Below are positions 19,420 to 24,998 of a stretch of DNA of 64,000 nucleotides, in pieces. The position numbers and the translations under genes are program-made. How positions within the stretch are numbered: position 1 is the stretch's first letter; every line of letters starts with the position of its first letter. The DNA lies in the NCBI GenBank assembly GCA_001600175.1, contig BCJC01000008.1, positions 126,781-190,780 of the forward strand, in the 5' to 3' direction. The notes beneath the pieces were generated by a model. That model was not told where the DNA came from, ran no database searches, and was given only the letters and a program-made list of their open reading frames with translations. The stretch comes from Erythrobasidium yunnanense (Eukaryota > Basidiomycota > Cystobasidiomycetes > Erythrobasidiales > Erythrobasidiaceae).

Positions 19420-19659
19420 GCTCTGGCCGTCGAGCGGTCTCTCGGGGGCAGCGGTCGAACGAAAAGCAATGAGGGCTTCTGGGACTCTTCTCTATCGATA
19501 CAAAAGCATCAAAACACTACATTGAACACCTTCTGATGTCTAACCCTGCAAAAACGAAGCTGGAAAGCCTGTTTGGGCCGATCTGGCCTCCATCGACTTC
19601 CAGGGCATCTACGACGCTCCAGGACCTCCCAAACGTCGTCGTAACACGCAAAAATTGAG
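19420..19659 (+). pseudogene. Truncated copy of the 3' end of the hypothetical gene at 22717-23553
   Basis: This segment repeats the last 80 or so codons of the minus-strand gene next to the right arm, in inverted orientation. The rest of that gene is absent upstream of 19420. In the frame that is longest in the full copy, this one is stopped early by a TGA where the right arm has CGA. It is therefore a gene fragment carried along by the duplication and is unlikely to be expressed as a protein. Confidence 0.5.
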
Positions 19660-19814
19660 GGAAGTGGGATTCGAACTGCTTAGGACGTTAGTGACTGTAC
19701 TCTCTGGCGGATCTGGCTGGTTTGGCTCACCCCACGCCCTTTCGGACTGCGGAACAACTTCCTAATGATGTAGGAACCTTAACACAGCGCCTTAGACCAC
19801 TCGGCCATCCCCCC
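19656..19814 (-). tRNA. tRNA-Leu(AAG) with two introns (left-arm copy)
   Basis: Identical to the plus-strand copy at 22561-22719. The acceptor stem is GGGGGGA with TTCCCTC (two G-U pairs), and the D arm begins GCCGAGTGGTCTAAGGC. The anticodon stem CTGTG pairs with CGCAG and the loop is TTAAGG plus C, giving anticodon AAG. A class II variable arm is present. One intron follows position 37 (19753-19776); a second, 55 nt long, sits inside the T arm (19676-19730). A run of A at 19650-19654 is the Pol III terminator read on this strand. Both introns must be removed to give a normal cloverleaf. Confidence 0.88.
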
Positions 19815-20281
19815 TGTACGCTTCTTGGATGAAAGCTCTCTCTTCTGCGTCATCTATGACCCAAACGGCGGCTTTCCAGCCAGATTGAGGCCCATCGCGC
19901 TCAGATTGGCCCTATGAACAGTCCACATACTCTTCTTCATCTCTATACTCTATCTATCAACCCTAGTACCAAGATGTCACCTCGCCTTTCGTGAATTCCC
20001 TGGTCCTACCGCCTCGGCTCTATCTCTGTCCTGACCCATGACCGGCAAGCTCGCTCTAGCATTATAACAGCATCTATCAAGTATAGAAATGCTCTGGAAC
20101 ATTCTGTTCGGTATTGCTATGCCCACGCTTTCTCTGGGCGAAGCGAGCGCGACATAGATTCAAGATCGCCCTCCAAAGGACCAAGATCTGTCTGCTGTCA
20201 GGGTACTAGCATGAAACATACATCTACCAAAGAACGCAGAAAAGTAATGATGATGTCTGGGGAAAAGTATCTGTCTCCTCT

Positions 20282-22093: not shown

Positions 22094-22598
22094 AGAGGAG
22101 ACAGATACTTTTCCCCAGACATCATCATTACTTTTCTGCGTTCTTTGGTAGATGTATGTTTCATGCTAGTACCCTGACAGCAGACAGATCTTGGTCCTTT
22201 GGAGGGCGATCTTGAATCTATGTCGCGCTCGCTTCGCCCAGAGAAAGCGTGGGCATAGCAATACCGAACAGAATGTTCCAGAGCATTTCTATACTTGATA
22301 GATGCTGTTATAATGCTAGAGCGAGCTTGCCGGTCATGGGTCAGGACAGAGATAGAGCCGAGGCGGTAGGACCAGGGAATTCACGAAAGGCGAGGTGACA
22401 TCTTGGTACTAGGGTTGATAGATAGAGTATAGAGATGAAGAAGAGTATGTGGACTGTTCATAGGGCCAATCTGAGCGCGATGGGCCTCAATCTGGCTGGA
22501 AAGCCGCCGTTTGGGTCATAGATGACGCAGAAGAGAGAGCTTTCATCCAAGAAGCGTACAGGGGGGATGGCCGAGTGGTCTAAGGCGCTGTGTTAAGG

Positions 22599-22622
22599 TT
22601 CCTACATCATTAGGAAGTTGTT
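22599..22622 (+). other. Canonical tRNA intron after position 37
   Basis: A 24-nt insertion between G37 and position 38, the standard place for introns cut by the tRNA splicing endonuclease. It contains a CCTA...TAGG inverted pair. Confidence 0.8.
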
Positions 22623-22644
22623 CCGCAGTCCGAAAGGGCGTGGG

Positions 22645-22699
22645 GTGAGCCAAACCAGCCAGATCCGCCAGAGAGTACAGTCACTAACGTCCTAAGCAG
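22645..22699 (+). other. Ectopic 55-nt intron in the tRNA T arm with spliceosomal signals
   Basis: It lies between tRNA positions 53 and 54. It starts GTGAGC, a donor also used by the CBF1 and proteasome alpha-7 genes in this window. It has CTAAC at 22684-22688, whose A is 12 nt before the end, and it ends GCAG. This is the form and size of local mRNA introns. Whether it is cut by the spliceosome or by the tRNA endonuclease is not known. Confidence 0.8.
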
Positions 22700-22716
22700 T
22701 TCGAATCCCACTTCCC

Positions 22717-23553
22717 TCAATTTTTGCGTGTTACGACGACGTTTGGGAGGTCCTGGAGCGTCGTAGATGCCCTGGAAGTCGATGGAGGCCAGATCGGCCC
22801 AAACAGGCTTTCCAGCTTCGTTTTTGCAGGGTTAGACATCAGAAGGTGTTCAATGTAGTGTTTTGATGCTTTTGTATCGATAGAGAAGAGTCCCAGAAGC
22901 CCTCGTTGCTTTCCGTTCGACCGCTGCCCCCGGGAGACCGCTCGACGGCCGAGCATCTTCTCATACTTGTTATGAAGCTTTTCTCGTTCTCCATAGCTCT
23001 CTGGCTTCTCTTCTGCTCGCTGGAACACAGAAAGTCTTCTTTGAAAAAGCTGGCATGAATGATCGAAAATTTTGGGCGGGCACGAGACACCAGCTCGACA
23101 GGCAGTCCATTTGGGAGGATCAGTGTCGATAGATAGTCTTCTGAAGATCTTGAAGCATTCAGGAAGGTACCGCAAGCTTGCAGGGATTCGCTCATCGAAG
23201 ATTGGCCAAATTCGCGGCTCTGGCCTTTCCAAGGTGCAGCGGACTGCTTCGTGAATGGCGAATTGGTGCAAGTATACTACACAAGCACAAATTCGAAGAC
23301 GCTGCGAAAGATGATGGTCGTCCCGACTTCCCCCTTGAAGAAGCCTCTTTGCGATTTTGCGTATCTTTCGAGATCCACAAGGTCCAGCAGTCAGGCAAAC
23401 GTTGACTAGATGCGACGGGCAGACAGCAAGATATCCCAAGAGCATACGATACGCGATATGAGACCAAGGGCTGTCCAACCTCCAGAGATTACAGCTTTTC
23501 TGGGTGCTGGGATGCAGCTGTTCCTGGCTGAGGGTCGAAAAGCGTAACGGCAT
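22717..23553 (-). CDS. Hypothetical protein whose stop codon overlaps the tRNA-Leu end
   Basis: No known family is recognised. One frame stays open for about 1 kb (to 23724), unlikely by chance at this base composition. The first ATG is at 23551-23553, giving MPLRFSTLSQEQLHPSTQ and about 278 residues ending LPNVVVTRKN. It is rich in Arg, Leu and Cys, with no signal peptide or clear domain. The TGA (rc of 22717-22719) shares its bases with the 3' end of the convergent tRNA gene. Other frames in the same stretch also look protein-like (for example SEDYLSTLILPNGLPVELV), so an intron-bearing model in another frame is possible. The last quarter lies in the inverted repeat. Confidence 0.4.
   Translation of the reverse strand: MPLRFSTLSQEQLHPSTQKSCNLWRLDSPWSHIAYRMLLGYLAVCPSHLVNVCLTAGPCGSRKIRKIAKRLLQGGSRDDHHLSQRLRICACVVYLHQFAIHEAVRCTLERPEPRIWPIFDERIPASLRYLPECFKIFRRLSIDTDPPKWTACRAGVSCPPKIFDHSCQLFQRRLSVFQRAEEKPESYGEREKLHNKYEKMLGRRAVSRGQRSNGKQRGLLGLFSIDTKASKHYIEHLLMSNPAKTKLESLFGPIWPPSTSRASTTLQDLPNVVVTRKN
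22721..22725 (+). terminator. Pol III terminator of the right-arm tRNA-Leu
   Basis: TTTTT begins two bases after the discriminator base; the mirror run lies at 19650-19654 for the left-arm copy. Confidence 0.8.
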
Positions 23554-23961: not shown

Positions 23962-24998
23962 TTACTCCTCCATCTCGCTCTCTAATTGCTGCTTCGCCCA
24001 AGTCTCGGCTTCGTTCAGGATATCCTTCGGTATAGGCTGATGTTTTTGCCCTGTCCTGATCCACGACATCTCCAGCTCAAACTCCTTGTCCTTGACCTCA
24101 TCGTGCACTGTGTGAATGATAAGAGCTGCATGCTTGACTGCCTCTTCGCAGGTCATGTTGTCTAGGTCCAGCTTCTCGATCGCAGTCTTGGCCAATTGTC
24201 GACCCTTCCCTGTTGCGCAACCTCGATAGCCCCAGTACACGCCATTCGGCTCGATCATATAGAGAGCAGGTCCACTCTTGTCGACGACACCCATGATAGC
24301 GGTCACTCCGAAAGGACGGACAGAAGAGTAGAGGGTGTATGCTTGCATGTATTGGCCCATTCGGTCGGCTAGGATCTGCATAGAAAGGTCAACATGTGTA
24401 TGTCCAATATGGAAGCCTGTATACCTTAGCTGGCACCTGCGTTCGGTAGGTATCACGATAGTTCTCGGCCTCTTCTCGCGCTCTGTTGCCCAAGTGTCGC
24501 CCGTCCGCAACGAGTCCAGCTGTAGCCTGTACAATAGCATCAGTACAGTTCAATCATAGTAATCGCTATACCTACAATCCCGCAATGCGTGTCGACTGAC
24601 GCTATCCTTCGATTCGCGCCTGGCACCAGCAGCTTGCTCGTCACCAGCTTCTCTACAGCCAGAATGATTCCATCCTTGAGTTTGATTCCAATAGCCGTTC
24701 TTTGTTTGTTGAGTTGCCAGCGTCAGAATGCAAGTCCATCGCATATCCTCGTAAGCGGGTGCCTTTCTCACCCTGCGTTTTCGACGGCCTTGTTTGCGTA
24801 TTCCAGCTAGAAAGTAATAGCGTAAGCATATATAGATCCCTCGTATTGTTTCAGTAACTGCAGCTAACTTGAAAGAGTCGACCATCCGGCGAGTACGTGC
24901 TGGATCACCCAAACGTCTCAGATCCAGCCGTAGCACCCAGCTATCCCTGCTTCTGCTCACCTCACAGACAGATCATAACCTGTTCCTATCGATGCCAT
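23962..24998 (-). CDS. PRE10: 20S proteasome alpha-7 subunit (PSMA3 type)
   Basis: A structural subunit of the outer alpha ring of the 20S proteasome. The ATG at 24996-24998 opens MASIGTGYDLS, and a GTGAGC donor follows. The next exons give STYSPDGRLFQ and LEYANKAVENAG, the proteasome alpha-type signature. Then come GIKLKDGIILAVEKLVTSK, RIASVDTHCGI, MGQYMQAYTLYSSVRPFG and YMIEPNGVYWGYRGCATGKG, all as in PSMA3/Pre10. The C-terminus is acidic (QQLESEMEE). About five introns are present and TAA is at 23962-23964. The length of about 250 residues fits the family. Identification as alpha-7 rests on the N-terminal SIGTGYD and the YEMSWI-like tail (ELEMSWI). Confidence 0.93.

Follow-up and report, generated by a model that had tools for sequence, protein, structure and literature searches.

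The analysed stretch of 64,000 nucleotides (hereafter referred to as the window) contains two copies of a tRNA-Leu(AAG) gene. The first copy, identified on the forward strand from the sequence and an ARAGORN model (22561..22718), carries two introns: a 24-nt intron of the 37/38 type in the anticodon loop, called by ARAGORN and with ends other than GT-AG (22599..22622), and a 55-nt insert of spliceosomal type in the T arm, between tRNA positions 53 and 54 (22645..22699). The insert reads GTGAGC...CTAAC...CAG, so that the three signals reported in the first-pass annotation are all present in the sequence. CTAAC (22684..22688) is the predicted branch site, with the putative branch A 12 nt upstream of the intron's final base. 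The gene has an intact predicted A box, TGGCCGAGTGG, recognised by a box-pattern match (22568..22578). The core of the putative B box, GTTCGAATCC (22699..22708), is intact in the DNA because the terminal G of the intron supplies its first base. A TTTTT run resembling a Pol III terminator is found at 22721..22725. All these features lie on the forward strand. The second copy, on the reverse strand (19657..19814), is identical to the first and has the same T-arm intron (19676..19730) and anticodon-loop intron (19753..19776), also on the reverse strand. Each copy lies in one arm of an inverted repeat, the left arm (19425..20281) holding copy 2 and the right arm (22094..22950) copy 1. The arms are 857 nt long and 1812 nt apart, with 854 identical positions and three mismatches, all outside the tRNA; the earlier statement that both copies have the same sequence therefore holds, and the arrangement looks like a recent duplication or gene conversion. 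An assembly error at one place was rejected as the origin of the insert, given the two copies in the window and the 23 further interrupted genes on other contigs described below.

No tRNA was detected in the unspliced sequence of the window by ARAGORN or by Rfam at the gathering threshold. Once the 55-nt insert is taken out, ARAGORN recognises a tRNA-Leu(AAG) with a 24-nt anticodon-loop intron and a score of 109.0; the excision between positions 53 and 54, with the insert exactly at 22645-22699, restores the T stem GTGGG-TTCGAAT-CCCAC, as had been proposed. All distinct removals of at least 25 nt within 45 nt of the site were also scored with ARAGORN, with no GT-AG rule imposed. Only 83 of these 5631 removals yielded any tRNA, and the GT-AG removal was the unique best. 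Applied to 400 segments of 350 nt drawn at random from the window, a solver allowing zero, one or two GT-AG introns found no tRNA, whereas both Leu(AAG) copies, used as a positive control, scored 109.0. The unique best removal and the null result for the random segments argue against a chance origin of the model, and a pseudogene with a decayed cloverleaf was rejected on the basis of the score after removal and the identity of the two copies. A search for the first 18 bases of the intron elsewhere gave three bacterial matches and no viral match, roughly the number expected by chance (estimated at seven for 18 bases in 257 billion).

The first-pass annotation had called for a genome-wide scan allowing introns at any tRNA position, and the Leu(AAG) case proved to be one of many. 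The genome searched comprises 20.9 Mb in 10 contigs and encodes proteins of fungal affinity: among the matches to its proteasome alpha-7 protein, the best was an unnamed protein (72%), with Glomus at 71% and Mixia at 69%, and Spt6 was closest to an unnamed protein (48%), its best named match being from Ceratobasidium (34%). An Rfam tRNA scan returned at least 23 matches (63 of 397 candidates scored), and was unfit as a census because it missed genes found later, such as that for tRNA-His (L096). Candidate regions were collected with B-box patterns (51, 96 and at least 179 matches) and A-box patterns (38 and 15 matches). All members of the two smaller B-box sets were taken except C1:4843596, the matched string of which is that of C1:4824939 (L094), and 16 of the 38 and two of the 15 A-box matches were left out as not tRNA-like. 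The pattern YAGTTCRANYCC had 23 matches, of which those in Leu(AAG) (twice) and, after later modelling, the one in Leu(TAG) (L038) were accepted as tRNA genes. For 158 regions, some of which overlapped in that several genes fell in more than one region, the solver excised zero to two GT/GC-AG segments and the product was scored with ARAGORN; up to three segments were allowed for regions with no solution and some others, with the choice among solutions made by hand. Names were reassigned from the anticodon loops for Phe (Ala(GGC) in ARAGORN), both Ile(AAT) genes (??? and Thr), Leu(TAG) (Phe or Leu(TAA)) and Leu(CAG) (Arg).

The main set contained 34 introns in 23 genes, and the addition of Lys(TTT) L009 brought the total to 35 modelled introns in 24 tRNA genes (34 GT-AG and one GC-AG), with the Leu(AAG) pair counted once. 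The interrupted genes are Leu(AAG), Leu(CAA), Leu(TAA) and Leu(TAG), together with Lys(CTT) (two genes), Lys(TTT), Arg(CCT), Arg(TCT), Asn, Gln(TTG), Gln(CTG), Gly(GCC) (two genes), Thr(AGT), Thr(CGT), Pro(TGG), Trp, Ser(TGA), Phe, Ile(AAT), Val(CAC), Tyr and Cys. A further 17 tRNA genes were found without such an intron. The introns occupy 19 sites extending from the acceptor stem to the T arm (5/6, 9/10, 13/14, 14/15, 15/16, 16/17, 18/19, 20/20a, 22/23, 23/24, 25/26, 26/27, 35/36, 48/49, 51/52, 53/54, 55/56, 57/58 and 59/60), in a numbering that was assigned manually and in which some junctions can shift by one base or more. Site 53/54 is used five times, in the four interrupted Leu genes and in Ile(AAT), and Leu(CAG) (L015) has no intron there. 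This recurrence may be due to the AG of the intron providing the G of the B-box core. In Lys(TTT) and Thr(AGT) (L009, L057, L070), the anticodon itself is interrupted, with the intron at 35/36.

The uniformity of the intron ends is partly built in, because the solver requires GT or GC and AG. When 34 of the modelled introns were tested without this rule, the modelled removal was the unique best for seven, including Leu(AAG), tied for best for nine and was beaten by another removal for 18; the model for Arg(TCT) was beaten by a removal that includes the anticodon-loop intron. A rule-free scan of the 158 regions yielded no tRNA at all in 101. The unique best removal was GT-AG for Gly(GCC) L058, Tyr, Gln(TTG), Leu(AAG), Val and Leu(CAA), and was not GT-AG for several others, some of which are real genes. 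Five of the 24 models scored below 106 (Val(CAC), 102.6; Thr(CGT), 103.3; Leu(TAG), 104.2; Pro(TGG), 104.5; Lys(TTT), 105.9), close to the 100-104 of the solutions at L031, L037, L145 and L152, which were taken for chance and not accepted as tRNA genes. A likely Arg(ACG) gene (L098, G000:C4:1080960-1081320), with a GT-AG insert in the D arm and a long insert at the anticodon loop, was not accepted into the set. By eye, L108 (G000:C2:632850-633240) is a second copy of Lys(TTT), truncated just past its GT-AG intron. Repeated Glu(TTC)-like genes with an anticodon-loop intron lie near the ends of contigs C6 and C9 (L083, L084, L089 and L090), and in two of these genes the 3' end is altered. Within this incomplete census, tRNA genes appear to be few for a genome of 20.9 Mb, with mostly one or two per anticodon.

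Comparisons between gene copies bear on whether the interrupted genes are functional. They could be tRNA pseudogenes that have caught intron-like DNA, with unseen intact genes supplying the tRNAs. For Trp and Ile(AAT), copies free of such introns indeed exist: spliced Trp L086 (two introns) agrees with the uninterrupted L013 in 80 of 87 alignment columns, and spliced Ile(AAT) L101 (three introns) with the uninterrupted L095 in 90 of 95. Intact genes could also have been missed, since several expected species are absent from or unsettled in the census: initiator and elongator Met, Ala(AGC), Val(AAC), Pro(AGG) and Ser(GCT) were not seen in this search by general box patterns and tRNA models, and Arg(ACG) is likewise among the species concerned. 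Against this, tRNA scores are regained in gene after gene, and these two are the only anticodons for which an uninterrupted copy was found alongside an interrupted one; interrupted copies are the only ones found for 20 of 22 anticodons in the incomplete census. Both copies found are interrupted for Lys(CTT), Gly(GCC) and Leu(AAG), and the two Gly(GCC) genes are identical at all 70 spliced bases, with introns at different sites (9/10 and 14/15). The earlier annotation had named an intact Leu(AAG) gene elsewhere as an observation that would speak against its reading. A DNA search of the genome returned only the two known copies, and a pattern search returned these two plus three places yielding no tRNA, within the same incomplete census. 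The T-arm introns of Leu(AAG) and Leu(CAA) occupy the same site and have their first 11 bases in common, the rest having diverged (38 of 58 alignment columns overall). Only this common start and site argue for common descent, because other freely gapped intron pairs align about as well (Leu(AAG) and Leu(TAG), 37 of 59; two Lys introns, 35 of 58). Within the incomplete census, we consider it very improbable that the interrupted copies are pseudogenes.

The tRNA introns resemble the mRNA introns of the window. For comparison, we used 16 mRNA introns, eight from the AP-2 beta gene and five from the proteasome alpha-7 gene, obtained by spliced alignment, and three from Spt6, delimited by eye; two of the AP-2 beta introns, around a 20-nt exon at the 5' end, are less sure. 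The tRNA introns are 51-69 nt long (median 55) and the mRNA introns 49-72 nt (median 56.5, n=16). G stands at the fifth donor position in 27 of 34 tRNA introns and 13 of 16 mRNA introns, and C or T precedes the terminal AG in 30 of 34 and 15 of 16, respectively. The donor GTGAGC of the Leu(AAG) insert was said to occur also in the proteasome alpha-7 gene, and spliced alignment places it there, in an intron on the reverse strand (24900..24960, read from 24960 to 24900) the removal of which gives a product that reads as alpha-7. Of the 34 tRNA introns, 27 contain the motif CTRAY with its A placed 8-45 nt before the 3' end, compared with 5.7 on average and at most 14 in 2000 shuffles, and the motif had no role in picking these introns; it is present in six of the 16 mRNA introns, a count reached in 51 of 2000 shuffles. 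The single GC-AG case, in Arg(CCT), has the donor GCAAG, the usual form in spliceosomal GC-AG introns. The ends, branch motif and length of the tRNA introns thus agree with those expected of U2-type spliceosomal introns, with the GT/GC-AG ends dictated in part by the solver.

Alternatively, the inserts might be recognised through a bulge-helix-bulge (BHB) fold and excised by a tRNA endonuclease of the type found in Archaea or red algae, with less strict positional requirements. PMC4090602 describes archaeal introns at non-canonical sites that include 53/54 and 59/60, together with non-canonical introns in nucleomorphs and Cyanidioschyzon. In the genome studied here, the endonuclease domain PF01974 is present in two genes, and the 4-bp central helix of a BHB can form in two of the 35 introns (mean of 0.6 at random places). 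However, a strict BHB was found at the junctions of none of the 35 introns, and the GT/GC-AG ends, CTRAY motif and mRNA-like length are foreign to that class. None of the 35 introns lies at 37/38 in our manual numbering. ARAGORN predicts anticodon-loop introns in many of the same genes, and these are shorter (24 nt in Leu(AAG), for example), which also counts against a single endonuclease-type mechanism. We therefore consider this explanation highly unlikely. The presence of anticodon-loop introns of another kind and of PF01974 in two genes suggests instead that two splicing systems serve one pre-tRNA, with the T-arm insert handled as a spliceosomal intron.

The internal promoters and the U6 snRNA gene bear on the polymerase involved. 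The action of the spliceosome is usually coupled to Pol II, and the genes might be made by Pol II, or lie within longer Pol II transcripts, and be spliced as ordinary Pol II RNA. The A box had no match in 12 of the 24 interrupted genes (in Thr(AGT), the intron is not the cause) and the B box had none in three (Gln(TTG), Val and Tyr), the B box of Ser(TGA) being intact; both counts would fit transcription by Pol II. However, no interrupted gene lacked both boxes (0/24) and T runs lie 3' of many genes, an argument that is weak because box or T-run patterns were used in finding the genes, so that the former count may be biased. TATA-like words within 60 nt upstream were found for six of 24 interrupted genes, seven of 17 other genes and 3% of 1049 background windows. 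A precedent is also provided by the gene for U6, a Pol III product according to PMC10484740. The U6 gene of this genome (L178:35-312; G000:C3:381984-382261) is interrupted by at least three GT-AG introns of 52, 59 and 56 nt and by a likely fourth of 55 nt, one of the introns lying directly 3' of ACAGAGAAG. With the GT-AG segments removed, 57 of 60 bases spanning the first three junctions are identical to human U6, and the best local score rises to 108, versus 46 without removal. Spliceosomal introns therefore seem to be tolerated in some Pol III-type genes of this lineage. The two 5S genes read were uninterrupted, and a third 5S match lay below the cut-off. Overall, transcription by Pol II appears unlikely, and Pol III transcription remains the favoured reading.

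Given the observed sequence, boundaries and splice signals of the insert, its recurrence in the genome, the absence of a strict BHB and the presence of endonuclease domains, we consider it very likely that the insert is an intron of the U2 spliceosomal type within a functional nuclear tRNA gene, that it belongs to a set of no fewer than 35 such introns in 24 tRNA genes, and that it is removed by the spliceosome from a Pol III transcript. The first-pass annotation had left a choice between processing of a Pol III transcript by the spliceosome and removal of a lookalike intron by a different enzyme. As far as can be judged from sequence, the former is favoured by the 35 inserts in 24 genes, their mRNA-like donor, acceptor and length, the branch motif in most of them, the single GC-AG case, the lack of a strict BHB and the interrupted U6 gene. 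In the proposed pathway, Pol III would transcribe through the insert, both internal promoter boxes surviving in Leu(AAG); the spliceosome would excise the 55-nt intron from the pre-tRNA, and the tRNA endonuclease and ligase would excise the separate 24-nt anticodon-loop intron. The spliceosome would probably act first and the endonuclease after it, because the T arm must fold for the endonuclease, RNase P and RNase Z to measure the tRNA.

In the textbook view, tRNAs are spliced by protein enzymes at a single fixed site. Should the introns described here be spliced in the way that their signals suggest, tRNA maturation would involve the spliceosome, the range of which would extend beyond Pol II products and U6, and tRNA genes would be able to acquire introns in the manner of mRNA genes. 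Much or most of the tRNA supply would then probably pass through the spliceosome, including all the Phe, Asn, Tyr, Cys and Lys tRNAs that were detected and four of the five Leu tRNAs, as would U6; translation would hinge directly on the capacity for splicing, with Pol III transcripts as routine substrates of the spliceosome. Because this genome contains paralogues that differ in the presence of introns, intron gain into genes of known RNA structure can be tested directly. Scans allowing a single anticodon-loop intron may miss such genes, as in the window, where ARAGORN and Rfam reported none.

A search of open-licence PMC papers returned no report of spliceosomal introns in tRNA genes, and tRNA splicing is treated as spliceosome-independent in PMC13149111. 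A close likeness is with the mRNA-type introns of fungal U6 snRNA and U3 snoRNA genes; PMC5832005 names U3 and U6 as the only small structured RNAs in which introns are known to be frequent. The introns of U3 and U6 are also spliceosomal introns in small structured RNAs, U6 being made by Pol III, and U6 is itself interrupted here; the difference is that the introns described here affect many tRNA genes, at 19 sites, often together with an anticodon-loop intron of another kind. The canonical eukaryotic 37/38 introns removed by the tRNA endonuclease have their counterpart in the anticodon-loop introns of many of the same genes, such as that of 24 nt in Leu(AAG). However, eukaryotic tRNA genes are described as limited to one intron in PMC8450103, whereas a second intron, of spliceosomal type, is present here in the same gene. 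The non-canonical tRNA introns of Archaea, nucleomorphs and the red alga Cyanidioschyzon merolae, reviewed in PMC4090602, likewise lie outside 37/38, with several per gene and, in Archaea, at sites including 53/54 and 59/60. As that review presents them, the introns of Archaea and Cyanidioschyzon rest on a BHB and the tRNA endonuclease, and those of the Guillardia nucleomorph are 3-24 nt long, whereas the introns described here have GT-AG ends, a branch motif and a length of 51-69 nt, with no strict BHB.
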